A stretch of DNA of 59,060 nt from NCBI GenBank assembly GCA_016931325.1, contig JAFGFC010000119.1:1-59060 (forward strand). The letters run 5' to 3'. The translations under genes and the position numbers were made by a program. Position 1 is the first letter of the stretch; every line of letters begins with the position of its first letter. This document shows positions 3,879 through 50,810 of this stretch, one piece after another. Source of the DNA: Spirochaetota bacterium. GTDB taxonomy: Bacteria > Spirochaetota > JAHITG01 > JAFGFC01. The notes beneath the pieces were generated by a model. It was not told where the DNA came from. It was given only the letters and a program-made list of their open reading frames with translations, and made no database searches.

Positions 3879-3888
3879 GATGGGAAAT

Positions 3889-3917
3889 AATATATTGAAA
3901 TTATATTATATGTCAAC
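3889..3917 (-). promoter_or_regulatory. tyrS promoter, predicted near-leaderless
   Basis: On the minus strand, TTGACA (3917-3912), 17-base spacer and TATATT (3894-3889). Only 10 bases separate the -10 box from the tyrS ATG at 3878, so the 5' leader would be about 3-5 bases or absent. Confidence 0.6.
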
Positions 3918-3931
3918 ACTGAATTACATAT

Positions 3932-3996
3932 TCAAGGATCCAGGGGTCCAAGTGAAGACAATCTATCAAAGTAAATCTTCACTCGAATCCTTGAAC
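3932..3996. repeat. Two-step inverted repeat between tyrS and ptsI
   Basis: Outer arms TTCAAGGAT (3932-3940) and ATCCTTGAA (3988-3996) and inner arms AGTGAAGA (3952-3959) and TCTTCACT (3977-3984) are all perfect. They can form a long hairpin with an internal loop. It lies upstream of both divergent promoters, not inside either predicted transcript. It could be an operator-like site, a relic of a small mobile repeat, or a terminator for something no longer there. Confidence 0.55.
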
Positions 3997-14000: not shown

Positions 14001-15928
14001 ACCTTATCTTCAGGTCTATCCATTAACTTGTATAAAAGGTCCATATCAAACTCTTTCCCGATAATAGAACCGATCCTGAGAAGGACATCCAGGTCTTCAG
14101 GTATTTCCCTGATCCGCTGAAGCAGCATATCAATAATATTGGCGGATACTTTTATTTTATTGATATGGTTCCAGTCCTCTTTCCAGAATCCGTCTCTCCA
14201 GACAAGGGCTTTTCTTTCCACCAGTTCCCGCAACAAAGTGATCGCAAAAAAAGTATTACCCATGGTCTTGTTCATAATGTATCGTGTCAATTTCGCGGCC
14301 TTTTCTTCGCTCTCCCCCAGCACCTCGGATACAAGATTTCTCATCCTTTCATAATTAAGAAGTTTCAGGTTTATCTCATGCAACGCATATTCTCTGCTTT
14401 CAGCCCCTTTCTTGATCCGGCTCAAACTGTGACCGGCATCGACTTCCGTATCCCTGTATGTCCCGAGTATCAGGACAGAGGAACGGTTTACAATTTTTAA
14501 TATTTCCTCAAGAAGATTCAGGCTTCCCTCATCGGCCCATTGCAGGTCATCAAGGAAAAGCACCATCGCTTCTTTCGATATTAAACTGAAAAATCTGGCG
14601 CAGGCCATTCTGAACCTTACATTCTCTTTTTCCGCCGTATCCAATCGTTCGAGAGAGGGGATATCCTTGAAAATTTCTGAAATATTATAATTCAGCTTGG
14701 CAATTTCACCCATCTGCTGACCCATGGCTGTCTTCAATCTCTGTGTCTCTTCTTCCCGTTCTGTTTTCGATAGATGTTTCATCCTTCTGATATATTGATC
14801 AAGAATGTCCTTGAACGGCTGATAGGGCATTTTGTTCTCCTGATCAAAGCATTTCCCGACAAAGAATAAGCCCTGATGTTCATAGGCATAAGTTCGCAGT
14901 TCTTCCACCAGACGGCTTTTGCCAATACCGGGCTCACCGCTAATAAGGCAAAGGCTTCCCTGTTGCTCCCTGGCTTTATTAAAAAGTGATGTTAGTTGAT
15001 CGTACTCTTTTTTTCTCCCCACAAGCCTGACCCGGTAGGTCAATTTGACTTTTTGATCATGAGTGCCGATCACAAAACCCCTGGCTCCTTTTTGAACCTT
15101 TTCCAGATCGTGGATCAACCCGGCTGTACTCTGGTAACGAAGATCAGGTTCTTTTTCCAGTAATTTCATAATGATATCATCCAATTCCTTGGGCAGATCT
15201 TTATTCACAACACCCGGTCTGTGCGGTATCATGGCCACCTGTTTGTGTAAAATCTCGCTTGTTTTTTTGCCTTTAAAAGGCAGTTCACCGGTTACCAATC
15301 GATAGAACATGATCCCCAGAGAATAAAGATCACTTCGTTCATCAAGGGGTTTATTCACGATCCCGGTCGCTTCAGGTGACATATAACCAAAGGTTCCCAG
15401 TATCTCTTCTTCATCCTTTATCTCGCTAAGCTCCATTATGAAGGCCAGTCCAAAATCTAATAGTTTTACTTCATTTCTCTTTCCAACCAGCATAATATTG
15501 GCCGGTTTCAAATCTCTATGAATAATGCCTCTCAAATGGACATACCGGAGGGCATCAACGACCTGGTTGATAATCTCGATACACTCTTTGATTTTAAACT
15601 TCTTCCCCCTTGCTATGATCTCCAGGAGGCTTTCACCCTGCAATAATTCCATCACAATATAAGGGATGCGATTATATTCCCCCATACTGTAGACCTTTAT
15701 AATATGGGGATGATTGAATTTGGATATGACTTCAACCTCTTTTTTAAACCGAATACGATCTTCTATATACGATGATGTAACACCGGGTTTAAGGAATTTC
15801 ATAGCGACATGGTCTTTCTTCACTTTATCTTTGGCCCGGTAGACAATACTCATCCCCCCTTCTCCAACGTTCTCTAATATCTGATACCGGTTCTCAATCA
15901 GCTGGCCTTTGTGAATTTCTTTATCCAA
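11036..15928 (-). CDS. Giant Ser/Thr kinase-AAA-TPR-GAF-GGDEF signalling protein
   Basis: A 1,630-residue cytoplasmic protein that joins two output chemistries. Residues 12-277 are a Hanks-type protein kinase: glycine loop GEGGMSIVY (22-30), Lys44, catalytic HRDLKPAN (137-144) and DFG (158-160). Residues about 300-650 are a STAND/AAA ATPase with Walker A GEPGIGKS (331-338) and Walker B LFLDDLQWAD. A TPR-rich region spans about 680-1230. A GAF domain (about 1300-1440) precedes a GGDEF diguanylate cyclase with intact active site RYGGEEF (near 1525) and an RxxD inhibitory site (RKSD) five residues before it. The TTG start has GGGAG six bases upstream. Kinase-AAA-TPR-GAF chains usually end in a histidine kinase or nothing; ending in a cyclase couples Ser/Thr phosphorylation to c-di-GMP. 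The stimulus is unknown. Confidence 0.9.
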   Translation of the reverse strand: MDKEIHKGQLIENRYQILENVGEGGMSIVYRAKDKVKKDHVAMKFLKPGVTSSYIEDRIRFKKEVEVISKFNHPHIIKVYSMGEYNRIPYIVMELLQGESLLEIIARGKKFKIKECIEIINQVVDALRYVHLRGIIHRDLKPANIMLVGKRNEVKLLDFGLAFIMELSEIKDEEEILGTFGYMSPEATGIVNKPLDERSDLYSLGIMFYRLVTGELPFKGKKTSEILHKQVAMIPHRPGVVNKDLPKELDDIIMKLLEKEPDLRYQSTAGLIHDLEKVQKGARGFVIGTHDQKVKLTYRVRLVGRKKEYDQLTSLFNKAREQQGSLCLISGEPGIGKSRLVEELRTYAYEHQGLFFVGKCFDQENKMPYQPFKDILDQYIRRMKHLSKTEREEETQRLKTAMGQQMGEIAKLNYNISEIFKDIPSLERLDTAEKENVRFRMACARFFSLISKEAMVLFLDDLQWADEGSLNLLEEILKIVNRSSVLILGTYRDTEVDAGHSLSRIKKGAESREYALHEINLKLLNYERMRNLVSEVLGESEEKAAKLTRYIMNKTMGNTFFAITLLRELVERKALVWRDGFWKEDWNHINKIKVSANIIDMLLQRIREIPEDLDVLLRIGSIIGKEFDMDLLYKLMDRPEDKVVDLIDKAIDRQLLEQSLQKGKVVFVHDRIKEAFYAKMGERERKKYHLSVGRAFEEKYSDRTELVIFDLAHHFIEGRDKEKALKYSLPAAEKAQEKYANREAIKYYGFVKRTLEKSEKGARMAIVLEGLGDVQRLEGLYDDAMKNFKHAIQMAREKLYKAKIYEKMGVTLFQMGQVSEAIRVLESTLKFLNFKQTPRTPMGAKMSFVKEMLIQNIHMIFEKIMINEKYKYDERRQVQVKILLRLGYCYYFNDIVKSGLVSIKGLNIVDKMKDSVINCHYNILMAPIFASFPNYPVGEKYLKKGLQASIKIKNRLMEGFAYTYFCYLYCAANRLDESVHYGRKALNTLLPLGEKWEIAVAYSFIWWSFHKKGDLEEAIKISDEFYAFARLVNEPVTSGWAINVKARNLFLKKEVDNEIFDLVNEALIYEKQHNQHPHIVMVQTSLSFAYLQKGFYDKAIKEGEEGIRVFLNSQAKGFWSFDIFTWTAEAYLRKIEMTDVPLPLKENYFKRIEFLLDLAFHWGKKYRIFYGAAFRLKGKYLWLKGEKGKSIMAFNQALRFAEKNKHLYDLALVCYEMGRYLFKNEYNRVFNIEKGRSLLCKAGEILERMGNVTDLKKVRDVLGVEEKKADLDEATPRERLQLEREMTTVLDTITFISSILDLDNLLEKVIDKAMQLSGAERGILFLYPEDEKAERILKVRVIRNVKESELEHEGFNTSRGIINKVEMDKRSLIVEDATMDEKLKEEDSVVKYGLRSVLCIPIMLRDDLLGLIYLDNRLVSGLFNQENLRVLEVLAKQAGISISNAILYRRAITDGLTGLYNHNFFQNYLMKCVDSASRFKNDLSLLMIDIDHFKICNDTYGHHAGDLVLKEVADVFRNCIRKSDLVARYGGEEFVVILPQTDMIGARKAAEKIRKAIEELNVVCASDKAKKIKVTVSIGVSQLESGEDRIKLIEKADRALYKAKETGRNCIRLCAIKKPKRQVRRKKTSH

Positions 15929-16058: not shown

Positions 16059-17558
16059 TTAAAATCTTGCATAAAGCCCGGTGCGAAAGATCTTTTCCGG
16101 CTCAGGGTAATTGGCTATCTCGACATAATGAGTATTTAGAATATTCTCGCCTTCTAATTTTATACCAAGATTATCAGTAATAAAATAGAGGGCTTCAAAG
16201 TTCAGAGCCGCGTAACTTTTTAACTTTTTCTTTTCACCGGTATGGTCAAGGTAATGCCTTATGTCTGAATATTCCAGGCTGGTATTCAATACCAGATCAA
16301 GGATATTGAACCCGATGGTGGATTCCAGACCATTCCTGGCCAGGTAAGGAACTGTTTTTTGTGCGGAAACAACAGAAGGGATATAACGGTATAATATTTT
16401 AAAAGAAAAGATCCTGGAAGAAAAATTTAACGATGTGGTCAGACGAACACTTTCGATTTCAACATTATCAATGAAAAAGAGCCTGTCCGTATCCTCATAC
16501 AGAACAGGAAAATTTTTAATATCATGATAAGAAGATCTGATATTAAAATACAGATTTTCGATCAACTGCAAATTAATGGACAGTGAATATGATGTATCAA
16601 CCTGAGGATCAAGATCCTGGTTTATTTTGACGTAATAATGGTCCATGATCATACGCTGGAAATATTCCATATCATATACTTTGCTGGCCTCCAGAGAAAT
16701 ATGCAAGGGGCGTAGAATAAATAACAGTTGTGCCAGGGGAGCCAGAACATGTTCGTAATTTTTATTGATATGGGAAGCCACACCCAGATTAACCACTATA
16801 TTTCGGCTAAACGCGAATTTATCTTCCAGTTTAAAGATCCCTATATTATTTAACCTTCTTTCATTGCTATGCTGAACACTGTTCTGAAACATGATAATCT
16901 GCCCGGACAGCGAATTAATCTCGGACCATACTTTTTTATATAAAAGGATAGATTTTAAACTGTTAATTTTTACAGGGTAGGAGAACGTGGAACTCTCAAT
17001 AGTTGAATTAGATTCATCATAATCAAAACTGGCTGACAGGATCGAATTCTCGGAAAAAAAATACTTGAATTCCGGCAGGATCAGAAATTGCCTTTTGTTC
17101 TGTATATCATAGACGGGATTGGAGGCCATCCCCTTGGAAAAATATTTATAAATAAAATTAAGATCCAGCTGAATATTCTCCTGAGGTGAAAAATTGATCC
17201 CGGTTTCAAGAGAATCGATCCCAAAAGAGGAATTATATATTGTTTTGTTGCCGACATTATAGCTTTCCATTTTCTCCCTCAGATAGGAGATAATATATCC
17301 TTTATTCTCACTTTCCCGGGCAATGGTTAAATTAGCTTTGAAATTCTCAAATGTGCCATATAATATCTCTGCATAGGACAGAGCCCTCTCTTCCTTCTGT
17401 TTCTGTGAGGCAAAATAAATATCCGGTTTTACGGTCTGCATGATCTTGATTTCATTGGTAAGTAAAACCGTTTCATCAACAGGCAATATGATCCAGTCCG
17501 GTATCTGAGCCTGTAAAGGTTGAGCACAGATTATTGTGATGATGATGAAAATTATCAT
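16059..17558 (-). CDS. Outer-membrane beta-barrel, TonB-receptor-like without visible plug
   Basis: A 499-residue protein with a signal peptide (residues 1-18, ending ICAQPLQAQ). Most of the rest is alternating-polarity strand sequence rich in Tyr, Ser and Asn. The end is typical of TonB-dependent receptors: LEGENILNTHYVEI followed by a final strand FRTGLYARF with the terminal Phe used for barrel assembly. I see no plug domain (about 130 residues) and no TonB box before the first strands, and the length equals a 22-strand barrel alone. It overlaps the preceding TPR gene by four bases (ATGA), so the two are translationally coupled. Its job may be passage of a substrate linked to the polyferredoxin/TPR operon; the substrate is unknown. 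An ordinary porin is an alternative. Confidence 0.7.
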   Translation of the reverse strand: MIIFIIITIICAQPLQAQIPDWIILPVDETVLLTNEIKIMQTVKPDIYFASQKQKEERALSYAEILYGTFENFKANLTIARESENKGYIISYLREKMESYNVGNKTIYNSSFGIDSLETGINFSPQENIQLDLNFIYKYFSKGMASNPVYDIQNKRQFLILPEFKYFFSENSILSASFDYDESNSTIESSTFSYPVKINSLKSILLYKKVWSEINSLSGQIIMFQNSVQHSNERRLNNIGIFKLEDKFAFSRNIVVNLGVASHINKNYEHVLAPLAQLLFILRPLHISLEASKVYDMEYFQRMIMDHYYVKINQDLDPQVDTSYSLSINLQLIENLYFNIRSSYHDIKNFPVLYEDTDRLFFIDNVEIESVRLTTSLNFSSRIFSFKILYRYIPSVVSAQKTVPYLARNGLESTIGFNILDLVLNTSLEYSDIRHYLDHTGEKKKLKSYAALNFEALYFITDNLGIKLEGENILNTHYVEIANYPEPEKIFRTGLYARF

Positions 17559-19333
17559 TTCCCATTTTCCCGCAGGATCTTCAGGGCCTTTTGTTTGTGT
17601 TCTTCGCTCAGTTTGTGATACTTTGTAATCGACTCGAGATTATCGAGGATAAACCTATATTCCTCTTCCCGGGCGGCCTCATCGATCAATTTCTCCATAG
17701 CCTGAAGCGCCTGATGCGATGAGGGATATTTTCTTATTAAAAGCCTGAGGATCTGGCTTGATTCTAACCGGTCTTCGAGATATAGCAGACATTGAGATTT
17801 GATCCAGAGCACCTCCGGAATATCCAGTTCCTCTTCTGTATCCTTAATCACATAGTCACAATATAAAAGAGATTGTTCATAATGTTTTTCTTTATAACTG
17901 ATCCTGGCCAGATAAAAATAGGCCTTGGTCCTTATCGCTTTATCTTTCTGGTTTTCCAGGATAAACGAAAATAATTCCCTGGCCCTCGAATAATCCTCCT
18001 GTTGAAAATAAATCTCACCCAGTTTGAAAGCGGCAAAAACAGCTATTTTCTCTTTGGAATGATCTTTATATACCCTTTCGTAATACTCGATAGCCCGGTC
18101 CATCTTTTCCTGACGCAAATAGATATTAGCCAGATTATAATAAGAGGAGGCTTTAAGACTCTCTGTGGGGCTTGTGGTATCTATGATCTTTAAAAGAGCC
18201 TCTTGAGCCTCACTGTAATAGGCCATTTTTATATAAATGTCCGATATGATCTTTAAGACCATGTCTTTACATGACATGGTTGAATCCAGGGCTTTATTAA
18301 AATATTCAAGGGCTTCCTGATATTCTTTCTTTTCATAAGAGATCTCGCCATATAAAAAATAGGCATTTCCCTGTAAAGGCGAGGAAGGGAAATCCTTAAT
18401 TAAAAGATCAAGGTACTTGACGGTCAGTGAATATTCTTTATTCTGATAAAAGATCTTGGCCAGATAGTAATAACAATCATCCAGCAACTCAAGATCCGAA
18501 GAATACTTTTCTAAAAATTCAAGAAATAATTTCTTGCTTTCTTCAAAATCATTCTTATTATAATACAGGATCGCTATATTAAAAAGGGCTGTCTTTTTCA
18601 AGGAGGGCCAGGACGTTCTGTCATAGATCAGACGATAGACATCCATGGCCTCTGATCCTTTTTTCAAATTCTTATAGCATTCAGCCATCCACATATTGAT
18701 CTCATCCTTTGTTCGATAAAAAGGGTACCTCTCCTTTATCCTCTGGAACTGGTCAAGGGATTTTTCATATTGTTTGTTAAAAAAATAGACTCTTCCCACT
18801 TCAAATTCGATCTCGGGTATCAGAGGATTCTCTTTATACTTCTGGATGATCTGGAGAAATTCTCGCAAAGCGCTATCCATGTAATCCATCGCAAAATAAG
18901 ATTTACCGATATAATAATGGCCTGTTATATTCAATTCAGAATCATCAAACTCTTTATTGAACTCCCGGAAATTCTGTATGGCCAGCACGTATTTTTTTCC
19001 ATGATAATAGGCAAGGGCAATATAGTATTTCGCTTTTTCTTTAAAATAGGAATCAGGGAAATTTAAAAGTAACCGGCGGAATTCAGCGATGGAGCGGCTG
19101 TAAAGTTTTAAATTGAATGATGACATGGCTGAATAGAAATAGCTCCTCTCTTTATCAGCATCAGGAGCAAAAGAAGTAAGGATCTCTTCAAATTTTCTAT
19201 GAGCCAGAAAATATAATTTATTTTGCCACAATTCAAATGCCGTCTCAAAATCAATGCCCTCTTTTGTAAAAAGCGAGGAAGGCATAATAAAAGACAGGCA
19301 AAAAAGCAGAATAATTATTTTTAAAAAGTCCAT
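17555..19333 (-). CDS. Periplasmic tetratricopeptide repeat protein
   Basis: A 592-residue protein with an N-terminal signal peptide (residues 1-24) followed by a continuous TPR solenoid from about residue 30 to 580. Repeats are easily read as A-x-x-x-x-Y-x-K-x-x-Y patterns, for example ALEYFNKALD, AIEYYERVYKD and ARELFSFILEN, roughly fifteen in all. The style resembles YbgF/BamD-type outer-membrane scaffolds. It lies 18 bases downstream of the polyferredoxin gene and overlaps the barrel gene by four bases, so it is the middle gene of a three-gene operon. The solenoid probably bridges the inner-membrane redox protein and the outer-membrane barrel; that is inferred from position only. No lipobox is seen. 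Confidence 0.85.
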   Translation of the reverse strand: MDFLKIIILLFCLSFIMPSSLFTKEGIDFETAFELWQNKLYFLAHRKFEEILTSFAPDADKERSYFYSAMSSFNLKLYSRSIAEFRRLLLNFPDSYFKEKAKYYIALAYYHGKKYVLAIQNFREFNKEFDDSELNITGHYYIGKSYFAMDYMDSALREFLQIIQKYKENPLIPEIEFEVGRVYFFNKQYEKSLDQFQRIKERYPFYRTKDEINMWMAECYKNLKKGSEAMDVYRLIYDRTSWPSLKKTALFNIAILYYNKNDFEESKKLFLEFLEKYSSDLELLDDCYYYLAKIFYQNKEYSLTVKYLDLLIKDFPSSPLQGNAYFLYGEISYEKKEYQEALEYFNKALDSTMSCKDMVLKIISDIYIKMAYYSEAQEALLKIIDTTSPTESLKASSYYNLANIYLRQEKMDRAIEYYERVYKDHSKEKIAVFAAFKLGEIYFQQEDYSRARELFSFILENQKDKAIRTKAYFYLARISYKEKHYEQSLLYCDYVIKDTEEELDIPEVLWIKSQCLLYLEDRLESSQILRLLIRKYPSSHQALQAMEKLIDEAAREEEYRFILDNLESITKYHKLSEEHKQKALKILRENGK

Positions 19334-37980: not shown

Positions 37981-38337
37981 TTAGTTCTCTATTTTTAAAT
38001 ATTTTCCCTGAATAAATATACCATCCCTGGTTTTTATTAACTTGCCTTCCGTAATAATCATATTGGACAACATGGTGGGCAGTGTAAGATCATTAAAATG
38101 AACGGATATAACAAAAATATTATCCTGAATATTGATCCAGACACCTCTTGAACTCTCCTCTACCACGACACCTTTCACTTTTATCAGCTTGTCCAGATAA
38201 TTATTGGGATACCGTTTTAAAAATTCTATTGGTGTAAACTGTTCGATCTTCAGGGATTGCCCGAACTCTTTTTTAGCGCACGTTGAAATAACCATCAGCA
38301 GCAACAGGAATGAACAGATCTGTATCTTTTTTATCAT
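37981..38337 (-). CDS. Small lipoprotein of unknown function
   Basis: A 118-residue protein with a lipoprotein signal: a basic start (MIKKIQI), a hydrophobic core, and the lipobox VIST-Cys20. The remaining ~95 residues contain short strands (LIKVKGVVVEE, GVWINIQDNIFVISVHFN, GKLIKTRDGIFIQGKYLKIE) reminiscent of a small OB-fold, as in some periplasmic nucleic-acid-binding-like lipoproteins, but I cannot assign a family. A textbook promoter (TTGACA-16-TATATT) lies 14 bases before its ATG and is back-to-back with the promoter of the giant gene. Start choice is firm because the signal peptide begins there. Confidence 0.75.
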   Translation of the reverse strand: MIKKIQICSFLLLLMVISTCAKKEFGQSLKIEQFTPIEFLKRYPNNYLDKLIKVKGVVVEESSRGVWINIQDNIFVISVHFNDLTLPTMLSNMIITEGKLIKTRDGIFIQGKYLKIEN

Positions 38338-38395: not shown

Positions 38396-38424
38396 TTGAC
38401 ATTTTCCTGTTATTGTGGTATTTT
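38396..38424 (+). promoter_or_regulatory. Promoter of the giant surface-protein gene
   Basis: TTGACA (38396-38401), 17-base spacer, TATTTT (38419-38424). The -35 boxes of this and the divergent lipoprotein promoter are 16 bases apart, so both genes could share a regulator. Confidence 0.6.
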
Positions 38425-38555
38425 ATTCAAGAGATACAACGGCTTGAAAAATGGACTGGAAATACGGAAAAGCACAGACAATCGTTGGTATTGTTTTTGT
38501 CCTGTGGATTTTTCCGGTGAAGCGAAATAAAGGGAGAGAGGACTATCTTTATAAT

Positions 38556-41500
38556 ATGAGAAAGTATCTATTCCTTATCATTCTGTTACTATCAGCCCAT
38601 ACTCTCTTATCTACAACCTATTATGTAAAAACTAACGGGAATAACGGCGCGGCCGGCACATCATGGGCCACGGCATGGCAGACCATCCAGAAAGCCGCTG
38701 ACACAATGGGCTCGTCAGACCTATCCTATGTCAGTAACGGCCAGTATTGCGAAGAGATCAATGTCAACAGTAAAAGTTCAATAAGCTTTATCGGTTATGG
38801 TAATGCCGTTCTTATCAATGGCCGGCGAACCACCAATTACGCTTTCAGATTGGAAAATTGTGATAATGTTCTAATCCAGAATTTCGAGATCATTTCCAAT
38901 GATATCGCCATGATCTTTCTCACCAATTCTGATTACTGTATCATAGCCTACAATGATATCCATGATAATGATCAACCCACCGACCTGGGTTCAGGCATCA
39001 AACTGATCGATTCCTGTTATAATAATATCATCAACAATGAGATCTACTACATTGAAGCCCCCATTACAACGGGCCACTGCTATGGGATCTACTTGTATCA
39101 TTCCCATACTAACACGATAAAAAGTAATGTCATCAGAGAGTCAGGCAGCGGAGCCATATCCGGCGGCGTGGATATCTGGTGTCACGGCATTTATCTTCTG
39201 AACAGCGATAATAACCTGATCCGTTTCAATTATCTCCATGACATGGACCACTGGGGTGTGCATATCCAGGCTGATAATACCAGAGGCGCTCCTTATACCT
39301 TTCTGGATAACAGGATACTGGACAACAAATTCAAGGGCATGGACAGGGCCATCAGCACCCATGAAGTGCAGCCCAGTATCAGTGATTGTTTTAAAGGTCA
39401 GATCGTCGGCCGAAATGAGATCATCAACACAGCCAAGGGGATCGAGTGGGATGCGAATATTACCGGCAATGCCGGGGATGGAGGATGGTGTTACAAGAAC
39501 AGTTTTACGGCCAAACGCTCCAACTTCAATTATCTGGAAGGGGTCATGCTGGCCGATTGGCCCAAGATAAATTTTTTATATAATTCCATCCAGGGTTACT
39601 ATAATGGCCTGAACTTTCATAATTACGATTATAATTTATCTGATATTGCGTTTGGCAGCAATTACAGTAAGAACATCCTCAGATCAGCCGGAGCCGGCCC
39701 GGCGCAATCTATCAATTACAGTTGCACACAATCTGGAGGATTAGGCGCAGGTTTGTCCTCAGGCACCGGGAATACTCAGGGTCTGCCATTATTTTTTGAT
39801 ATGAGCAATACCCGGCTGGCCTGGAATTCACCCTGTATTGGCCGCGGCAAGCCCGGACCGGATGGGGCCAGAGGTTCTATCGGAGCCCACACCTCATGGC
39901 TGAGGGCTCGGAACAACGCAGCTAACAATATCTCGACCTATACGCTTGTGTTCGTGACCAGCCCTTATGACGGGTATATCCCGAATAACGCTAAAATAAA
40001 AGTGGATTTTCCCATCGGGTTCAGTTTTGTGTCACCGACCATCCTGACTCAGAATATGGGCGGTTCGATCTCCATCTCCTTTTCCGGACCCAGTATTACT
40101 TTTTCACGGACCAGCGGTGCAACTTTTCCCACCAACACGCCCATGATGATCGTCCTGACGGGCGTATATAACCCGGCTTACAATTCGACCAATTATTTCT
40201 GTACCATTACTATTACCAGTAACAATGGCACGTTAATAGAGTGGGAAGAATCCAATCATTTCAGGGTGATAAACGGTATCAACCGGTCTACTTCTCCTGA
40301 CCCCTGGCCGTTTTATATGAATAACAGAAGGCATACGGGTTCGACTAATAAATATATTATGGGGGTGCAGAGAAACCCTTTTGTTAAATGGTTCTTTAAC
40401 AACAGTTATAATTACAGTTCAGCCGTGGTGGGAGCGGACGGCACGGTTTATTTCGGAGACTATTATTATAAAGTATACGCCGTGACGAACGGGGTCCAGA
40501 AATGGATGTACACGGCAGACGAACGGATCTACGCCACACCGGCTCTCGGGTTTGACAATACGGTCTATGTGGCTGACAATGGGAATAAATTATACGCTAT
40601 CCGAAACGGGGTTCTCTTATGGTCTTTTCAGGCCACCAACAGTTTCTATTTTGCTTCCCCTGTCGTGGACCGTGATAATATAGTATATATAGGGGATCAG
40701 GGCGGGATCGTTTATGCCGTCTCGAACGGGCAACTGAAATGGTCTTATAAAACGAACGGTTCTATCGCCTACTGTTCCCCGGCTGTTGATACAAATGGTA
40801 CGGTCTATATCGGGAACAGCGGCGGAGATTTTTTAGCCATAACGAACGGCAAATTAAGATATTCGCTGGATCTGACCAATCAGGTACTCAATTCACCGAC
40901 TATCGGCCCGGACGGAACGATCTATGTTGCCACTTACAGCTGGAACAACAGCAAGATCTATGCGATCACCAACAATTCGACCAACGGCGGTGTCAGGTGG
41001 TTCCAGCAGGCCGGGCAGTATGTGTATGCTTCTCCGACCGTTGACGACAACAATATTGTCTATTTAGGCAACTGCAGCAATTATATCGCGGCTTATTCCA
41101 ACGGACAGATCAAATGGGTCTTTCAGACCAACGAGGATTTTATAGGATCGGCATCCATAGGAGCGGATGGAACGATCTATGTAGGGAATGAGAATGATTA
41201 TCTGTATGCCCTAACCAACGGCAAGATAAAATGGGCTTATTACACCGGGGACAATATCTATTATTCAACACCGGCCATTGGCCTGGATGGAACGATCTAT
41301 ATCGGCACCTGGGACGGGATGTACGCCATTACAGAAGAGAATCCGCCTGTTCTGGTCTGGAGCAGCAATACCGGGTATTCGAATGACGGCGTCGAACCGG
41401 ATGAAGGATATGACGGCCAGTATTTCCGGTTCGAGATCAAGTACAGGGACCAGGACAGAGACCCGCCTTCGACCAACCAGGTCTGGGTCGATCTGAATGA

Positions 41501-44500
41501 TAACGGGAATTATGAATCCAGCGAAAAATTCCCTGTTTTCCTCTGTTCCGGTTCGGATTATTCCAATGGTGTTATCTATACCAATGTTGTCCAGATCTTT
41601 CTGACAGGGGACGGGACCAATAATTACAAATTTCTCTTTGCTGATGAACACGGGATGCATCCTGTTACCAATGCCTGCATATCCAACCATATCGTGGTCA
41701 TCACGAATACCAATATCAATCATATTCTGGAAGTGGAAAAGAACACCAACCTGGATAAACTCTTCTTCTCCTATTCCAATGAATCAGTCCTGGCAGTGAG
41801 GATCTGGGACAACCGGGGAGACACATTAAAAGCGTTCAGTATGGGTAATTTAGGCACTATGACACAGGGTATTCATATAAGCGTTGTCAAGGTATACAGG
41901 GATGTGAACACCAATTACAGGTGGGACCTATCGGATTCTTATATCGCTCAGCTCTATTGGGACGGGACATCTCTGTGGACAAATAATAATATAAGTTCAG
42001 CGACTCCCCTTTCTTTTCCCAATTACCATTATATTGTTACAGTCGACCTGACAACCAATGTGAAAAAAGATGATTTTATCAAAGCCTATATTCCCTCTGG
42101 AGGTGTGAGATGCAGCGGCGGACAGACCGCCCCTCCCCTGGCCCTGACAAACCAGGGCAATGTGGTTGTCGGACAATATCTGTTCAAGCACCAGATTGGA
42201 ACAGGGGTCTATTACAGTTCCATTGTCCTGGGAGACATTGACGGAGACGAGGACCTTGATGTGATCGTATCAGGATATGATAATTCCAACCCTGTGCTGG
42301 CCAAATATGTGAATAATAATGGTTTTCTCACAGGGCCGACTCCTTTCGGCGACGGTGTCCGTTACTCGTCCATTGCCCTGGGAGACATTAACGCGGACAG
42401 TTCGCTCGACTTGATCGCAACAGGATACGATTCATCCTGGACACCCAGGCTCTGCAAATATATCAATGACGGTAACGGGAACTTTTCCGGGCCGACCAAT
42501 TTCGGAACTGGCCTGGGCTACGGTTCGATCGCGCTGGGTGACATCAATAATGACGGGTCACTGGACCTTGTCGTGTCCGGTAACGGCGTGGCCATTGACA
42601 AATATATCAATAATGGCACCGGCGGATTTTTCGGGCCCACGCTTATCGGGAGCAGTATGAGTTACTGCTCTATTTCCCTGGGTGATATTGATAATGATTC
42701 AGACCTTGATATTATCGCTGCCGGAAGCAGCCGGCTGGAAAAATATATCAATGATGGGAAGGGTAATTTCTCTTCAGCGATCTCATTCGGCGAAGGGCTT
42801 TACTACTGTTCCATTGCTCTGGGAGATATCAACGACGATGGCGTCCTTGACCTGGTGACCACGGGCTATGTTTCTGCCGGGCCTTATGTCCTCAACAGTT
42901 ATATTAATAACGGTCACGGAACGTTCTTGCCTCCTTCTTATTTCGGCACGGGAGCGCGTTATGGTTCACTGGCTCTGGGTGACATAAACAATGACGGGAA
43001 ACTGGATTTGATCACCTCCGGAGAGACCACTTCAGAAGGATACATTCTGAAAAGTTATATCAACAGCTTTGGAAATTTCATTGAGGAAACATCCTTTGGC
43101 AAAGGCGTTTACTATGGTTCTATTGCCCTGGGCGATCTCAACAATAACGGGAGCCTTGATCTGATCGTTTCAGGCAGGCAGTACGCAGGATCGATTAACA
43201 GGCTGGACCATTACAGGAATATGGAATACATGGATAACACCAGTCCCGGCATACCATCCAATCTGGCTTTGAAAACCAACAATGGATATTACAGGTTAGA
43301 ATGGGATGCTCCCCTGGATGATAATACATCCACCATCATGCTCCAGTATCATGTGGCCATCGGTGTGAACCAGTCCGAAGTCTATGATTATGTATCCACC
43401 AATATTGATTATCCCAGGGGCCAGGCTAATGTGGGGAATGCGGGAGCGGCTGTAAGCAATTTTTTCCAGACCACCCTCTCCACGCAGAGCAAAATATTCT
43501 GGAAGGTCTGCGCCATCGATACCTCTTTCAAGCATGGCCGTTTCAGCCCGGAGAGTTTTAACAGTAACGGCAATCACAGGTTGATCGTGACAAAGAATAC
43601 GGATTTCAGCACGAACTACCCGAATTTTTTCAGTAACACCATCATGAGTGTGAAAATTTCAGATACCTATCCCCATCAATTACGCAGTCTGAAATTCTAT
43701 AATAATTCCACCATGGTCCAGGGATCAGATATTGACAGGGTTTATTTATGGCTTGATGACAATAATAATAAAATATGGAATCTGGGTGATGTTCTGTTAG
43801 CCGAACTGATCTGGAACGGAACATACTGGTCCAATGGCAATATTAATTATAACCTTTCCTCTGACGGCAAGGATTTTGTGGTCACGGTCAATTTTGCCCG
43901 AAGTGTGAATCCATCCAATTTCATTCAGGCGGTGATCCCCAAAGGGGGTGTGACCTGCAGCGGCCTGACCAATGCGCCTGATGTGGCCCTCACGAATAAC
44001 GGGCTTGTGGGCATACAGGAAGGGTTTATCGGCCCTAATACAGGAATTCTACCTGGATGTAACGCGCCTTGTTTTGCTTTGGGTGATGTAGATAATGATG
44101 GTGATCTTGACCTGGTTGCCAATGGATTATTTTATACCTATAGCAAATCTGTCCTTAGGCATTTTAACCCTGGTGATGGTAATTTTAACACTCCTTCTTC
44201 GTTCGGGCAGGGTTGTGACAGAGGTTATCTTGCATTGGGAGACCTCAATAACGATGGATACCTGGACCTTGTTGTTACCGGCGCAGGTTCAGCAGCCAGC
44301 TATCATTATTTCGACAGATATCTGAATGATGGGGCTGGAAATTTTGCCAATAGAGTAAGTTTATATGGAACAGATACGGAAGGATTGTGTGAATCATCCA
44401 TTTCACTCGGAGACATGGACGGAGATGGGGACTTGGATATTATAGCAACAGGCAGCAGTACTATCGCTTTGCCGGATGCCCGGCTTGAATATTATACCAA

Positions 44501-47500
44501 TAAGGGCAATGGTAACTTTTCAACAAGACGGCAGTTCGGCACAGGTGTTTATAACGGCAGCAGTGCTATAGGTGATATTGATAATGATAATGATTTTGAT
44601 CTGATCGTTTCAGGTCAAGGCCGCCTGGATAGATACATTAATGATGGGAATGGTAATTTCACCAATACTATAACAGCTTTTGGTACAGGCATGTCCTATT
44701 GCTCCATCGCCATGGGAGATATTAATAATGACGGATGGGTTGACTTTGTCATTACGGGGAATAGTGGAGGGAATAAATTATATAAATATATTAATAATCA
44801 AGATGGCACGTTTACAGGAACACAGATAGGTACAACAGGATCATCCTATGGTGCTGTAAACCTGGGTGACATTGACCAGGATGGTGACCTTGATATTGTT
44901 ACTGTAGGAAGTTCCAGGCTGGATAAATATTATAATGATGGAACAGGCATTTTTAGTGGACCATATCCATTTGGCAGAGGATTAGGTACAAGCTGGGGAA
45001 GCAGTGCTGTCATGGGAGATATTGATAATGATGGTGATCTGGACCTCATTACAGGAGGTGATATCCCGGGAACCCTTTATGAAGACATTTATTTCAATAT
45101 CCATCACGAAGTCAATACTGCCCCTAATATGCCGCAGAATACAACATTCACCAGTATTAACGGTAAATGGCGCCTAAAATGGGATGCGCCGGTTGATGAC
45201 CATACCTCGGCTGCCATGTTACGCTATAAAATAGCCATTGGAACGAATACGCCGAATAATTATAATAACACATCAGACGCTGTGGATTATCCTTCGGGCC
45301 AGGCCAATATAGGTAATGTGACCGTTGTTACCGGCACTTATTATCAAACTCGGATCACTAACACAAGAAGAGCCTACTGGAAAGTTCTGGCCATTGATAC
45401 ATCCTATAAAATATCCTGGTATACACCGGAAGATGTGGCCGATTACTTTTTCGTCCACAACCTTACTTTGGGTTCTAATTATTCCACCATTACCAATGCC
45501 CTGTCCAATGCCAGGAACGGCGACCACATCCAGGTGGATCCCTATATTGTTTTCAGGGAACAGGTCAATATACGCAATTTTACAAACCTGATCATTGAAG
45601 CCACTTATTTTGCTTCCAATCACAGCATGACCAACACTTTTATCCATCCCCCGGCCAATTCAGCTTATGCGGCCAAGATCACGAACTGTTATAATGTCCT
45701 CTTTCAGGGCTTTACTCTTAAATACGCGACCAACGGCCTCATCATTAATAGCGGGGAGAGCAATACCATAAAGAACAACTCTGTTTTCTCCAACGATATC
45801 AATGGCCTCACCCTTTCCGGATCCCTGAACAACCTTATCCAGAGTAATATTGTTTATCATAATGATTATGGCCTCAACCTGGCAGGAAGCGACGCGGACA
45901 GGATATACAGAAACCTGATAAGGCATAATCAACTCAACAACCTGAACGTGAACGGCTCCTCTTCAGGCACCAGGGTCATAAACAATACGATCTTTAAAAG
46001 CGCCACAGAAGACGGGGTGATCTGGAACAACACATCAAGCGGGACCATGTTTAACAACATTATACTCTCCAACGGGAACGGCGCCGGAGATTACGGTGTG
46101 CAACGGTCAACTTCAGGATTGGTCTATCTTGATTATAATGATTTTAACGGGAACAGGGGCGGGCATACGAACGGCGGTTTCTCAGCCGGAGCGGATAATA
46201 CCACAAACAACCCCCTGCTGGAAACCATAAGCAGTTTCACCATATCCTCTATTTTATCACCGGCTATGGACACCGGCCTGGAGATACAGGGTATTTCTGA
46301 TGTTTATGTCGGGATCAAACCGGACATGGGCTGGAAAGAGTCCCTTTTTGTCTATCCAAACTCAGGTCCCTATTTTGTTGATGATGATATCGGGAGGGAC
46401 ACGTTCAACGGTTCATTTGAATATCCCTTCCAGACCATCCAGAGGGCTGCGCAAAGGATGATGCCGGCCGTGGATGTGACCGTGGCCAGCTGTTATGTCT
46501 ATCCAGGAGTATACCCGGGGAAAGTTGATATTACCTCCAACATGAATACCGGCTTGATGGTGATCACAAAGCTTTCCAATGTTGCTCCCGTTATGAATGG
46601 ATCTATGTTAACCAACCATGGGATCAAACTGACCAACACATCTCGAGTTCTCATCAGTGGACTGACCATCAAGAGATACAATCCTTACGGTATTCTTTTT
46701 CAATCCGGAGCCTTCAGTAATTTTATTATAAGAAATACTATTGTATCAAACGATGACCAGGGGATTTACTTTAACCATGGTACAGCGCGTGATAATTTCA
46801 TATTGACAAACCACATCTGGGGTTATGATCAGAACACAGGTATCTATTTTAACCGGGGACATCATATAACCATTCAATCCAATTATATTTTTAATAATAG
46901 CGGCGCCGGAATTTATTTTGGTACAGCATCTTCTAATAATTATGTCATTAAAAATAATATCTGGTCCAACTGGGGGCAGGGGATATACCTGGGTTCGGAT
47001 ACCGCGGATCGTAATACAATAATATCTAATGATATCTGGGGACGTAATCAGGATTACGGTATTTATATGTGGATGGCTGACCGTAATATCATACAATATA
47101 ACCAGATCCATAATAATCAATCCTATGGTGTCTATACGTCGTGGGATAATCAGACCAATATTTTTTCTCATAATAATTTTTATTCCAATGAATCATACGG
47201 TATTTACATATCTGATGATAACTCTGATAATAATTACTTTTTAACCAACACGTTCTGGGGACTGAACCAGGATTACGGCATATATATTAATAATGGTGAT
47301 AACAACAAGATTTACAGGAATCTGTTCCATGACAATGCCATATACGGGATCAGGCTCATCGGTTCGGCCCTGGACACGATAATCATCAATAACACGATAT
47401 TCGGTTCAGGAACAGGAGACGGTGTCATATGGGAGAACACCTCCAGCGGGACCATGTTCAACAACATCATCATCTCGAATGGCGACGGCGCCGGGGATTA

Positions 47501-50500
47501 TGGCGTGCAGCGCAGCACAAGCGGAATTGTCTATCTGGCATATAATGACTTTTTCGGGAACCGGGGAGGCCATACCAACGGTGGTGTCATCTGGGGTCCT
47601 GCCAACATCACAAATGATCCTATGATCGATATGGTTACATCATTCACCATTATCTCGCCTTCCTCCCCCTGCGTGGATACAGCCACGAACATTCCGGCTA
47701 TTACGACCAATTATCTCGGCCTGGGCCCTGACAGGGGCTGGAAAGAATCGCCTTTCTCCAAGCCTCATCCCGGACCCTACTACGTGGACAATGATATCGG
47801 GCTGGATTCGAACCCGGGAACATTCGTCATGCCTTTCCGCACGATCCAGAAAGCCGCCAATACCATATCAGCCGGACCTCCTTTGTGCACCATTGCTTCC
47901 TGTTATATCTATCCCGGGGCTTATTCCAATTCTGTTAACATCGCTTCTAATAAAAATAATGGCTATATGGTGATCACCAAACTCTCGAATGCAAGGCCCT
48001 TATTGACAGGATGGGGCAAATTCACTTTTGCTTTTAAATTAACCAATGCCGGATTAATTAAAATAAGCGGATTGGATATAAAACGATACACGGATGGGAT
48101 CGTGCTCAAAGGCTTTTCCACAAACACCGTTATCAGCAATAACGTGATCTATTCCAATATTGATAATGGAATTTTACTCTTCTCGGATTATGCCGACAGG
48201 GCCCTGATTATCTCCAATATTTTACGGGGAGGCCTGCAGGATACAGGGGTCTATATATACAATGCCGACCACTGCGATATCCGGTGCAACCAGATCTATG
48301 GTAATGATGACGGGGCCAGTTTAGACAGCTGCGGTATCTATCTTATCGGTACGGCCTGGAGTAATGTTATTGTAAAAAACCATATCTATAACAACCGGAA
48401 CGGGATCTTATTCAACTCGACCAACGCGGACTATAATTTTATCCTGACCAATTATATCTATAACTCCGGCGGTAACCAGAATTATGGCATTCAGCTGCAC
48501 TGGGGTGATTATAATACCATCCGTTCGAATTTTATGTATCTTAATACGGTTGTGGGCATGGAGCTGGGTTATTACGCTGAAACGAATTATATTATTCAGA
48601 ACAGTTTCTATAACAACAGCTGGTCAGGGATACGGACCGTATGGCATGGCGATAACAACATTATCCTGAGCAATAATATCAGCGGGCAGGTCTATGGCAT
48701 AAGGCTCAGAACAGAGAACAATCTGATACGCGACAACAAGATCCATGATCACAGTAACGCCGGCATCATGGCCGACCCGGGGTTTCAGGAACATACCAGA
48801 AATAATTATATCGCCCGCAACCAGATCTTTTCCAACCGTTTCTATGGCATCCGCTTTGAAGAGGAAGAGACGGATAACAACTTTATCTTGAGCAATTATA
48901 TACTTGGGCCGGAACAGTCCAGGGGTATTTATATTATCCAGGGGGATAATAATACCATGCGGTCCAATTACATTTTCCTGCATAAAACGAACGGCATCTA
49001 TATTGGGACCGATTCGTCGAATAATTACATGTCTTTCAATGACATTATTTCCAATGACCATTACGGGATCTGGATCAATCACGATAATGCTGATTACAAT
49101 CTTATCTTGACCAATCATATCTGGGGACAAAATCAGGATTATGGGATCTTACTTTCAGCCGGTGATAATAACACCATCAGTTCAAACCATATCTACCGCA
49201 ACGCCGACAGAGGGATCTTCCTTTCCGGCAGCGCCCAGAATAATTTCATTACGAAAAACCTGATCTTTTATAATGGAACGTATGGGATCCGGCTGTCTTC
49301 TTACACGGTAGCGAATAACTATATTTTATCGAACAATTTCTGGGGAGTCCAGGCTATCGGCATCTACCTGGAATTTGGGAAAAATAATGTTATTAATGAC
49401 AACAAGATCCACAATCAGTACCAGTCCGGGATCAGTTTGAGCGGGGGTTTTGGCATTGCCACGAACAACTATTTTGCCCGGAATTCGATCTATTCCAATG
49501 ATGATGTGGGGATAGGGATCGGACCCGGATCGATCAACAATTATATATATACCAATGCGCTCTGGGGAGAGAATCAGGACTGGGGTATTAATTTCTATGG
49601 TGGCAAATTCAACACTATCGAATCAAATCATATTTATAAAAACAACCTCAGTGGAATTAATTTCTGGGGCGGAGGTGTGGCTTCCACCAACACCATAATA
49701 AAAAATCTTATTTTTTCAAATAATAATTATGGTATATTTTTTAATGAGGAGAACGCGGATTATAATTATATCATTTCCAATATCTGTTTTTCTACGAATC
49801 AGGACTGCCAGATCAAGATCGACCAGGGTGACAATAATGAAATACTGTATAACATCATCAGGGAGGCTTCCTTTGCCGGCCTCATGCTCACCAATAACGC
49901 CACCAATACAAAAATATTCTATAACCGGATTGTTCACAACAATATCGGGATCAATATGAAAAATACCACCACCGCCAGCCTGTTCAGAAACGCCATCTTT
50001 GGCAACAGCCGCGAAGGTATCCTTCTGGAGAATGGCGATAATGTCGAGATCATCAATAATTCGCTCGGCAGTAACGGTTATGTGGCCACCCGTGACGGTT
50101 TAAAGGTGAATTCCAGCAGTGAGGACATTATTATTAAAAATAACATCATCATATTCTGTGAAGGATACGGCGTGAACGTTGATGCCGGAGGGAATGTGGA
50201 CCTTTTAGCTTATAATGATGTATTCAGTAATCTCGCCGGAAATTACAACGGCATCACACCGGGAGCGGGGACGATCACCAATCATCCGTTATGGTTATCC
50301 TATCAGGTGAATTCTTCCAACTTTCTCTACCTGTCCAATCAATCACCCTGTATTGACGCCGGTGACCCGGCTGACACGCCTCCTGTTGACGGAGGTTTAT
50401 ATATTGATATGGGATGGAAAGAATTCACCCGGCCTTTCGTGCGTGTGCTTTTATCAAAGAGCATTACCAATATTCAACTGGGCGGCCTGAACGAAGATGC

Positions 50501-50810
50501 TATCCCCGGCGCATCCATCGAATATAAATTAGGGTATCACATCATCAGCTATGGTAATGAGAACGTTGACAGGATGATCATTTATGACAGGGTCGATCCC
50601 AATACAACGTATTCAACAGGATATTTAGGGACGGCTACGGGACTCACTCAGGAATATTCCACCAATGATGATCCTGATCAGGGTTATAATTCTGCAAATT
50701 ACGACCGGTCCATGCCTGAAAAGAACAAGATCAAATGGGTCAGATGGAAAAAGATCTCTGAAGGCGGCGGCACACAGAAGACTATCTTTCTGAAGATAAC
50801 GATCAAATAG
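38556..50810 (+). CDS. 4,084-residue secreted beta-helix / beta-propeller protein
   Basis: A very large exported protein with a signal peptide (MRKYLFLIILLLSAHTLLST). Order of parts: a NosD-like parallel beta-helix (about 21-450); a cohesin/Ig-like strand domain; eight PQQ-type propeller repeats of the form DGTVY-G-YA-TNG-KW (about 605-925); a strand domain with CSGG; seven FG-GAP/VCBS calcium repeats (DINNDGSLDLV type, about 1212-1548); a fibronectin-III-like domain; a second copy of the strand domain; seven more FG-GAP repeats (about 1827-2178); another fibronectin-like domain; a very long right-handed beta-helix (about 2299-3955) in at least two modules, each opened by a YYVDNDIG-type leader; and a DUF11-like end. 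No sorting signal, anchor or barrel is seen at the C-terminus. The start at 38556 is chosen for the signal peptide; an ATG at 38451 would add 35 residues. Adhesin, polysaccharide-binding or surface-layer role is inferred. Confidence 0.85.
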   Translation: MRKYLFLIILLLSAHTLLSTTYYVKTNGNNGAAGTSWATAWQTIQKAADTMGSSDLSYVSNGQYCEEINVNSKSSISFIGYGNAVLINGRRTTNYAFRLENCDNVLIQNFEIISNDIAMIFLTNSDYCIIAYNDIHDNDQPTDLGSGIKLIDSCYNNIINNEIYYIEAPITTGHCYGIYLYHSHTNTIKSNVIRESGSGAISGGVDIWCHGIYLLNSDNNLIRFNYLHDMDHWGVHIQADNTRGAPYTFLDNRILDNKFKGMDRAISTHEVQPSISDCFKGQIVGRNEIINTAKGIEWDANITGNAGDGGWCYKNSFTAKRSNFNYLEGVMLADWPKINFLYNSIQGYYNGLNFHNYDYNLSDIAFGSNYSKNILRSAGAGPAQSINYSCTQSGGLGAGLSSGTGNTQGLPLFFDMSNTRLAWNSPCIGRGKPGPDGARGSIGAHTSWLRARNNAANNISTYTLVFVTSPYDGYIPNNAKIKVDFPIGFSFVSPTILTQNMGGSISISFSGPSITFSRTSGATFPTNTPMMIVLTGVYNPAYNSTNYFCTITITSNNGTLIEWEESNHFRVINGINRSTSPDPWPFYMNNRRHTGSTNKYIMGVQRNPFVKWFFNNSYNYSSAVVGADGTVYFGDYYYKVYAVTNGVQKWMYTADERIYATPALGFDNTVYVADNGNKLYAIRNGVLLWSFQATNSFYFASPVVDRDNIVYIGDQGGIVYAVSNGQLKWSYKTNGSIAYCSPAVDTNGTVYIGNSGGDFLAITNGKLRYSLDLTNQVLNSPTIGPDGTIYVATYSWNNSKIYAITNNSTNGGVRWFQQAGQYVYASPTVDDNNIVYLGNCSNYIAAYSNGQIKWVFQTNEDFIGSASIGADGTIYVGNENDYLYALTNGKIKWAYYTGDNIYYSTPAIGLDGTIYIGTWDGMYAITEENPPVLVWSSNTGYSNDGVEPDEGYDGQYFRFEIKYRDQDRDPPSTNQVWVDLNDNGNYESSEKFPVFLCSGSDYSNGVIYTNVVQIFLTGDGTNNYKFLFADEHGMHPVTNACISNHIVVITNTNINHILEVEKNTNLDKLFFSYSNESVLAVRIWDNRGDTLKAFSMGNLGTMTQGIHISVVKVYRDVNTNYRWDLSDSYIAQLYWDGTSLWTNNNISSATPLSFPNYHYIVTVDLTTNVKKDDFIKAYIPSGGVRCSGGQTAPPLALTNQGNVVVGQYLFKHQIGTGVYYSSIVLGDIDGDEDLDVIVSGYDNSNPVLAKYVNNNGFLTGPTPFGDGVRYSSIALGDINADSSLDLIATGYDSSWTPRLCKYINDGNGNFSGPTNFGTGLGYGSIALGDINNDGSLDLVVSGNGVAIDKYINNGTGGFFGPTLIGSSMSYCSISLGDIDNDSDLDIIAAGSSRLEKYINDGKGNFSSAISFGEGLYYCSIALGDINDDGVLDLVTTGYVSAGPYVLNSYINNGHGTFLPPSYFGTGARYGSLALGDINNDGKLDLITSGETTSEGYILKSYINSFGNFIEETSFGKGVYYGSIALGDLNNNGSLDLIVSGRQYAGSINRLDHYRNMEYMDNTSPGIPSNLALKTNNGYYRLEWDAPLDDNTSTIMLQYHVAIGVNQSEVYDYVSTNIDYPRGQANVGNAGAAVSNFFQTTLSTQSKIFWKVCAIDTSFKHGRFSPESFNSNGNHRLIVTKNTDFSTNYPNFFSNTIMSVKISDTYPHQLRSLKFYNNSTMVQGSDIDRVYLWLDDNNNKIWNLGDVLLAELIWNGTYWSNGNINYNLSSDGKDFVVTVNFARSVNPSNFIQAVIPKGGVTCSGLTNAPDVALTNNGLVGIQEGFIGPNTGILPGCNAPCFALGDVDNDGDLDLVANGLFYTYSKSVLRHFNPGDGNFNTPSSFGQGCDRGYLALGDLNNDGYLDLVVTGAGSAASYHYFDRYLNDGAGNFANRVSLYGTDTEGLCESSISLGDMDGDGDLDIIATGSSTIALPDARLEYYTNKGNGNFSTRRQFGTGVYNGSSAIGDIDNDNDFDLIVSGQGRLDRYINDGNGNFTNTITAFGTGMSYCSIAMGDINNDGWVDFVITGNSGGNKLYKYINNQDGTFTGTQIGTTGSSYGAVNLGDIDQDGDLDIVTVGSSRLDKYYNDGTGIFSGPYPFGRGLGTSWGSSAVMGDIDNDGDLDLITGGDIPGTLYEDIYFNIHHEVNTAPNMPQNTTFTSINGKWRLKWDAPVDDHTSAAMLRYKIAIGTNTPNNYNNTSDAVDYPSGQANIGNVTVVTGTYYQTRITNTRRAYWKVLAIDTSYKISWYTPEDVADYFFVHNLTLGSNYSTITNALSNARNGDHIQVDPYIVFREQVNIRNFTNLIIEATYFASNHSMTNTFIHPPANSAYAAKITNCYNVLFQGFTLKYATNGLIINSGESNTIKNNSVFSNDINGLTLSGSLNNLIQSNIVYHNDYGLNLAGSDADRIYRNLIRHNQLNNLNVNGSSSGTRVINNTIFKSATEDGVIWNNTSSGTMFNNIILSNGNGAGDYGVQRSTSGLVYLDYNDFNGNRGGHTNGGFSAGADNTTNNPLLETISSFTISSILSPAMDTGLEIQGISDVYVGIKPDMGWKESLFVYPNSGPYFVDDDIGRDTFNGSFEYPFQTIQRAAQRMMPAVDVTVASCYVYPGVYPGKVDITSNMNTGLMVITKLSNVAPVMNGSMLTNHGIKLTNTSRVLISGLTIKRYNPYGILFQSGAFSNFIIRNTIVSNDDQGIYFNHGTARDNFILTNHIWGYDQNTGIYFNRGHHITIQSNYIFNNSGAGIYFGTASSNNYVIKNNIWSNWGQGIYLGSDTADRNTIISNDIWGRNQDYGIYMWMADRNIIQYNQIHNNQSYGVYTSWDNQTNIFSHNNFYSNESYGIYISDDNSDNNYFLTNTFWGLNQDYGIYINNGDNNKIYRNLFHDNAIYGIRLIGSALDTIIINNTIFGSGTGDGVIWENTSSGTMFNNIIISNGDGAGDYGVQRSTSGIVYLAYNDFFGNRGGHTNGGVIWGPANITNDPMIDMVTSFTIISPSSPCVDTATNIPAITTNYLGLGPDRGWKESPFSKPHPGPYYVDNDIGLDSNPGTFVMPFRTIQKAANTISAGPPLCTIASCYIYPGAYSNSVNIASNKNNGYMVITKLSNARPLLTGWGKFTFAFKLTNAGLIKISGLDIKRYTDGIVLKGFSTNTVISNNVIYSNIDNGILLFSDYADRALIISNILRGGLQDTGVYIYNADHCDIRCNQIYGNDDGASLDSCGIYLIGTAWSNVIVKNHIYNNRNGILFNSTNADYNFILTNYIYNSGGNQNYGIQLHWGDYNTIRSNFMYLNTVVGMELGYYAETNYIIQNSFYNNSWSGIRTVWHGDNNIILSNNISGQVYGIRLRTENNLIRDNKIHDHSNAGIMADPGFQEHTRNNYIARNQIFSNRFYGIRFEEEETDNNFILSNYILGPEQSRGIYIIQGDNNTMRSNYIFLHKTNGIYIGTDSSNNYMSFNDIISNDHYGIWINHDNADYNLILTNHIWGQNQDYGILLSAGDNNTISSNHIYRNADRGIFLSGSAQNNFITKNLIFYNGTYGIRLSSYTVANNYILSNNFWGVQAIGIYLEFGKNNVINDNKIHNQYQSGISLSGGFGIATNNYFARNSIYSNDDVGIGIGPGSINNYIYTNALWGENQDWGINFYGGKFNTIESNHIYKNNLSGINFWGGGVASTNTIIKNLIFSNNNYGIFFNEENADYNYIISNICFSTNQDCQIKIDQGDNNEILYNIIREASFAGLMLTNNATNTKIFYNRIVHNNIGINMKNTTTASLFRNAIFGNSREGILLENGDNVEIINNSLGSNGYVATRDGLKVNSSSEDIIIKNNIIIFCEGYGVNVDAGGNVDLLAYNDVFSNLAGNYNGITPGAGTITNHPLWLSYQVNSSNFLYLSNQSPCIDAGDPADTPPVDGGLYIDMGWKEFTRPFVRVLLSKSITNIQLGGLNEDAIPGASIEYKLGYHIISYGNENVDRMIIYDRVDPNTTYSTGYLGTATGLTQEYSTNDDPDQGYNSANYDRSMPEKNKIKWVRWKKISEGGGTQKTIFLKITIK

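Follow-up and report, generated by a model that had tools for sequence, protein, structure and literature searches.

A giant mosaic protein of a Spirochaetota bacterium ends in a DUF11/CLIPPER-derived domain that may act as a T9SS-like sorting or anchoring signal

The last 122 residues of a 4,084-residue exported protein encoded in a Spirochaetota genome form a DUF11/CLIPPER-derived domain (CTD) that is always found at the C-terminus, joined to unrelated partners. From its distribution and from the company it keeps we infer for this CTD a T9SS-like role in sorting or anchoring, probably as an address label that takes the protein to the cell surface; no other part of the giant protein is as informative. 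The window analysed is a stretch of 59,060 nucleotides representing an entire contig (C140) of the source genome, a MAG of 2.88 Mb in 204 contigs (here G000).

By ORF inspection, the plus strand of the window is open through 4,084 codons without a stop at 38556-50810. An alternative start at the ATG at 38451, upstream, is possible and would lengthen the product by 35 residues; we take 38556 as the start because a typical signal peptide, MRKYLFLIILLLSAHTLLS, begins directly there. As read from the sequence, this is an N-terminal Sec signal peptide, a feature that type A substrates of the T9SS also have. The features of the gene and of its upstream region are as follows.

38379-38352, minus strand: divergent promoter-like TTGACA/TATATT (by consensus match)
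38396..38424, plus strand: promoter-like TTGACA-17-TATTTT, with TG before the second hexamer (by consensus match)
38556..50810, plus strand: single ORF, 4,084 aa plus stop (open frame; junctions supported by homologues; no shared or repeated 21-mers)
38556..38615, plus strand: Sec signal peptide, aa 1-20, without a lipobox Cys (read from the sequence)
38616..39875, plus strand: first right-handed beta-helix, NosD-like, aa ~21-440 (Pfam, NCBIfam)
39888..40280, plus strand: Ig-like linker domain, aa ~445-575 (comparison with paralogues and homologues; mostly without Pfam match)
40353..41360, plus strand: eight-bladed PQQ/BamB-type beta-propeller, aa ~600-935 (Pfam; model with pLDDT ~90; Cake8, TM 0.94 by target)
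41361..42170, plus strand: Ig-like domain and linker domain 'D', aa ~936-1205 (sequence and homologue comparison)
42183..43235, plus strand: FG-GAP set 1, seven repeats with calcium-type loops, aa ~1210-1560 (Pfam, loop count)
43248..44000, plus strand: FnIII-like domain and second linker domain 'D', aa ~1565-1815 (sequence; FnIII label by inspection)
44043..45095, plus strand: FG-GAP set 2, seven repeats with calcium-type loops, aa ~1830-2180 (Pfam, loop count)
45108..45392, plus strand: second FnIII-like domain, aa ~2185-2279 (weak DUF4959 match at 2186-2233)
45393..50420, plus strand: second beta-helix, ~1,680 aa in three tandem segments, aa ~2280-3955 (Pfam, NCBIfam)
50442..50807, plus strand: CTD, DUF11/CLIPPER-derived, aa 3963-4084, predicted seven-stranded beta-sandwich with a lineage-specific second half (homology, alignment, model with pLDDT 88)

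Five promoter-like sites were recognized by consensus match, against 1.4 ± 1.0 in shuffled sequences, and the divergent pair listed above is common to the giant and to the gene for a 118-aa lipoprotein located upstream (37981-38337, minus strand). From position 26,359 to the end of the window the giant is the only plausible plus-strand gene, all remaining genes being on the minus strand. These results bear out the initial annotation, which had described one exported protein of 4,084 residues, the only plus-strand gene in the last 33 kb, with its own promoter (here a candidate by consensus) back-to-back with a lipoprotein. Elsewhere in the window, a 1,630-aa protein (11036-15928, minus strand) combines a Ser/Thr kinase domain with a diguanylate cyclase at its C-terminus, and a TPR protein (17555-19333, minus strand), which adjoins a barrel-like protein at 16059-17558, matches PorW/SprE at 80.8 bits, below the cut-off of 250; we rejected it as a PorW/SprE candidate, as the match is sub-threshold and TPR matches are generic.

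The modules succeed each other in the order NosD/beta-helix, Ig-like, eight PQQ blades, Ig-like, twice a linker plus seven-repeat FG-GAP unit, the long beta-helix, and the CTD, with a linker domain 'D' before and an FnIII-like domain after each FG-GAP block. Pfam recovers Beta_helix (5e-92), NosD (1e-82) and FG-GAP_3 (2e-64) in addition to the PQQ/BamB-type propeller, and finds no match in aa ~1037-1198, which are part of the Ig-like/'D' region; a block boundary at aa ~575-583 is common to the giant and its paralogues. The score of the giant against the NosD maturation protein TIGR04247 is 76 bits (cut-off 300), which places it outside that family. Eight PQQ units can be counted in the sequence, and the AlphaFold2 model of residues ~607-928 (pLDDT ~90) predicts eight four-stranded blades in a ring closed by an N-terminal strand, with the eight-bladed ring Cake8 as a close fold match (TM 0.94 by target). 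The calcium loops of the FG-GAP sets number exactly 7 (aa 1227-1527) and 7 (aa 1844-2155). Thus the module content that had been read from the sequence beforehand (NosD-type helix, eight PQQ blades, 7 + 7 FG-GAP calcium repeats, second helix of over 1,600 residues) is confirmed by Pfam, NCBIfam, loop counts and modelling, and the expectation that each propeller block folds as a closed ring holds in the predicted PQQ model; for the FG-GAP sets the repeat counts are seven each, and the AlphaFold model of that part, from a three-row alignment, has a pLDDT too low to judge ring closure.

It had also been stated that no anchor or secretion signal is visible at the C-terminus: this view has to be abandoned, because aa 3963-4084 are a conserved domain that is terminal in every protein in which it was found. 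CTD copies were searched by domain and not by position in the protein, and 30 of the 30 located by homology (24 of cargo type, two fused to PorV-family barrels, and four in Brevinematales-type genomes) run to the stop codon. In the divergent copy on contig C181 of the source genome, one of the 24 of cargo type, the profile match falls nine residues short of the stop; one further copy is incomplete in the stretch examined, and its full version at another locus ends at the stop. Weak partial matches elsewhere (e.g. contig C194 of the sister genome G002) cover only the DUF11-like first half. A Lys, a Pro-Gly, a Thr and a W-x-R-W motif are invariant in the alignment, and the second half follows the pattern EYSTN..PDQ.Y.S..Y..IKWVRWKK..KVIIK-stop. 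PF01345 is matched by 12 and TIGR01451 by 15 of 21 CTD members; the DUF11 gathering score (24.6 bits) is exceeded by some relatives (27 bits) and missed by the giant itself, and in all cases the match is to the first half, spanning at most positions 9-79 of 114. DUF11 has recently been renamed CLIPPER (PMC12617251). The model of the CTD (pLDDT 88) is a sandwich of seven strands; type A CTDs are reported to have a beta-sandwich fold as well (PMC12618676). The best right-sized fold match, a weak one, is the CLIPPER structure 9IFR (TM 0.57, E 0.04), and the sequence search of the PDB likewise ranks 9IFR first (E 0.5); there is no T9SS CTD among the listed fold matches. Neither the giant nor the 21 CTD members match TIGR04183 (type A); TIGR04131 (type B) has no match in the giant and matches one of the 21 members at E 0.007.

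The CTD profile matched 12 of 393 genomes of the phylum, eight of them strongly, and a scan of ~85,000 species genomes for the strict pattern KW[VI]RWKK returned only Spirochaetota/Brevinematales-type records. Relatives carrying the CTD include Spirochaetes bacterium MM_PC_MetaG.mb.203, bacterium STB_17, a MAG labelled Brevinema andersonii (SulCav), and Brevinematales bacterium DeMMO3_10. No neighbour gene of the CTD genes is conserved across the whole set. In the Brevinematales-type genomes (L099-L102, L128) the next gene after the CTD gene has the same orientation, encodes ~490 aa and belongs to a single conserved family.

The passengers of the CTD are found with other ends as well. In the source genome, 13 complete paralogues of the FG-GAP or helix modules end not in the CTD but in FlgD/T9SS type A-like tails (C-termini inspected, with HMM support for most), and there are 43 type A-like tails at E <= 1e-3. 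The same genome encodes an SprA-like protein of 1,921 aa (contig C52, 6352-12114) that scores 105 bits over several matched stretches, against a cut-off of 200 for TIGR04189, and 56 PorV-family matches, many over cut-off, so that PorV-family shuttles are present. Among the 38 PorV matches listed, 12 follow a same-strand type A tail at a distance of 87-227 bases, where ~0.1 would be expected. Judged by gene order, these pairs look like a layout in which many cargos own a shuttle. Two PorV-family barrels (157 and 162 bits; cut-off 90) have the second half of the CTD as their own C-terminus. The loci concerned are the following.

G000, contigs C48, C74, C75, C99, C105, C106, C108, C123 (two), C182, C187 and C199: type A-tail gene then PorV-family gene, same strand, 12 pairs among the listed matches
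L166:3329-4612 (G000 C103) and L169:2267-3571 (G001 C44): CTD-fused PorV-family barrels (PorV profile plus CTD match)

The C103 barrel is 46% identical to the CTD of the giant over 52 aa, and the gene immediately upstream of each fused barrel encodes a ~415-aa protein that bears a FlgD/type A-like tail, a layout that is kept between the two families. In the flanking regions covered, no PorV gene was found next to a CTD gene, and there is no shuttle gene downstream of the giant. The PorU sortase (C25 peptidase) had no match in six genomes, and the control genomes were equally without match; PDB sequence searches with the SprA-like and PorV-family proteins also gave no match. Across the phylum, SprA-like proteins, mostly of ~1,900-2,000 aa and all under the curated cut-off, occur in 76 of 393 genomes; none was found in G002, which has the CTD and is 78% complete. 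SprA is present in 9 of 12 CTD genomes vs 67 of 381 others (Fisher P 3e-5; 393 genomes, phylogeny ignored), and type A tails are likewise associated with SprA (P 2e-15, phylogeny ignored); these associations support, but do not prove, a link to export.

We therefore read the CTD as a sorting signal because it is strictly terminal on very different passengers of several families, because it is swappable with type A-like tails (a 731-aa protein joins the first helix block straight to it), and because of the SprA-like protein, the PorV expansion, the fusion of CTD and PorV barrel, and the co-occurrence of CTD and SprA. The failure to find PorU, the sub-threshold scores of SprA and its absence from G002, the listed fold matches without a T9SS CTD and the lack of an adjacent PorV gene in the flanks examined weaken this reading. 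On balance, we give about an even chance to the giant being a Sec-exported adhesin or matrix mosaic whose CTD is recognized by a T9SS-type route to the cell surface or matrix. Along this route the protein would pass through Sec into the periplasm, the CTD would be recognized by a T9SS-type outer-membrane translocon composed of the SprA-like channel and PorV-family shuttles, and the protein would come to rest at the cell surface or within the matrix; there its helices and calcium-bound propellers may serve as adhesive or polysaccharide-binding surfaces. A wider proposal, which we advance tentatively and rate somewhat short of even, is that some Spirochaetota possess a T9SS-like export with dozens of PorV shuttles, many of them right behind their cargo, and a third, DUF11-derived class of sorting domain on giant mosaics including this one and, in part, on PorV-family barrels.

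DUF11 domains are widespread as stalk modules and frequent in large surface proteins, and thus a shared terminal CTD could reflect common descent rather than sorting: the giant would be an ordinary periplasmic or released mosaic, and its CTD an inherited family feature devoid of sorting function. This alternative, which is consistent with the many members that are paralogues generated by duplication and block loss and with the CTD genes having no adjacent shuttle gene in the flanks examined, is less likely; it is at odds with the strictness of the terminal placement across very different passengers in several families, with the second half of the CTD being the best conserved and recurring on PorV barrels, and with the paralogues in which the same passengers bear another end domain. 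We consider improbable a different role for the CTD, that of a covalent or donor-strand anchor, i.e. a CLIPPER-type isopeptide domain cut before the strand of the acceptor Asn, whose free Lys/Asp pair could accept a strand from a surface partner and so fix the protein there. In 9IFR the isopeptide bond connects Lys715 and Asn806, with Asp748 (PMC12617251). In the 21-row alignment of the CTD Lys6 is invariant and Asp49 nearly so, the DUF11 profile stops at position 79 at the latest, and the CTD ends, in a weak sequence register, at the strand before the VNN segment of 9IFR, all of which would suit an anchor; on the other hand, no partner strand was identified, the residue numbering of 9IFR is not exactly matched to the CTD alignment, the CTD as modelled may close without a further strand, and a clean isopeptide covariation is broken in the divergent copies, where Lys and Asp are not strictly co-conserved.

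NosD-Ig-PQQ is continuous in G002 (aa 15-995, 57% identity), PQQ-D-FG-GAP1-D-FG-GAP2 in G001 (aa 583-1979, 45% identity), FG-GAP2-helix in four loci and helix-CTD in three, so that each module junction of the giant recurs in other genomes; the gene has no near-identical internal repeats, no 21-mer repeated inside it, and none in common with 22 paralogue regions of its own genome. Since every junction recurs elsewhere and no 21-mer is shared with the paralogue regions examined, it is very improbable that assembly joined two or more family members into this frame, even in a fragmented, paralogue-rich MAG (204 contigs) in which several paralogues are cut by contig ends. Two or more separate genes were also considered and discarded, as the homologues in sister genomes keep the same neighbouring modules fused in the same order; the single gene of the initial annotation stands, with neither an assembly join nor separate-gene homologues being found. 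Its further claim, that no described protein has this exact order, is upheld insofar as no second protein was found with the whole order in one piece, but the order can be put together from overlapping fragments.

The giant is in fact one member of a family of reshuffling exported mosaics built from interchangeable blocks; it is not the only one of its kind, nor is any other member shorter by rule, as a longer one exists, and its size is not unique because related frames of 3,427, 3,515 and 5,627 aa exist in sister Spirochaetota MAGs. The longest of these, on contig C299 of G002, carries beta-helix repeats of the giant's family. Other permutations are NosD-Ig-CTD (the 731-aa sister protein), PQQ-D-FG-GAP-helix-tail (1,739 aa) and NosD-Ig-FG-GAP-helix. 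The giant exemplifies the construction, by block shuffling, of surface proteins that run to thousands of residues. Its CTD is apparently undescribed, lineage-specific and present on many different exported proteins, in genomes that encode SprA-like proteins, type A tails and a greatly expanded PorV family as well. The T9SS has been reported only in Bacteroidetes (PMC4793230) or placed in the FCB superphylum (PMC11205867), and we found no description of it in Spirochaetota in the open-licence literature; if the CTD sorts cargo, T9SS-type export would extend past the phyla in the literature found, with a new class of signal and many cargos having their own shuttle gene.

Compared with known systems, each passenger module of the giant clearly belongs to the NosD/right-handed beta-helix, PQQ-BamB or FG-GAP (integrin-alpha type) families, although the equivalog cut-offs are missed by far and the functions of NosD and BamB are not implied. 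With the CLIPPER domains of fibrillar adhesins (DUF11, PF01345; 9IFR) the CTD shares an alignable first half and most of the Lys/Asp of the isopeptide triad; however, those domains are usually tandem stalks in mid-protein, whereas the CTD is single and always terminal, has an unrelated second half and apparently misses the Asn strand. SprB-type adhesins with type B CTDs (TIGR04131) and PorP/SprF shuttles are likewise very large, repetitive, adhesin-like cargos whose sorting domain is distinct from type A, but the CTD of the giant is of another sequence family and no shuttle gene follows. PorV serves the type A tails of F. johnsoniae, in which type B cargo is often followed by the gene for its cognate PorP/SprF (PMC12618676); a similar pairing is seen in the source genome, but with type A-like tails and PorV-family genes. 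The type A system (TIGR04183) itself differs in that the C-terminus of the giant matches neither TIGR04183 nor TIGR04131, in that PorU was not detected here, and in the host phylum; the giant resembles its cargo in the Sec signal peptide, the terminal beta-sandwich and the large modular surface-protein architecture, and type A-like tails, the PorV family and an SprA-like protein are all encoded in the source genome.
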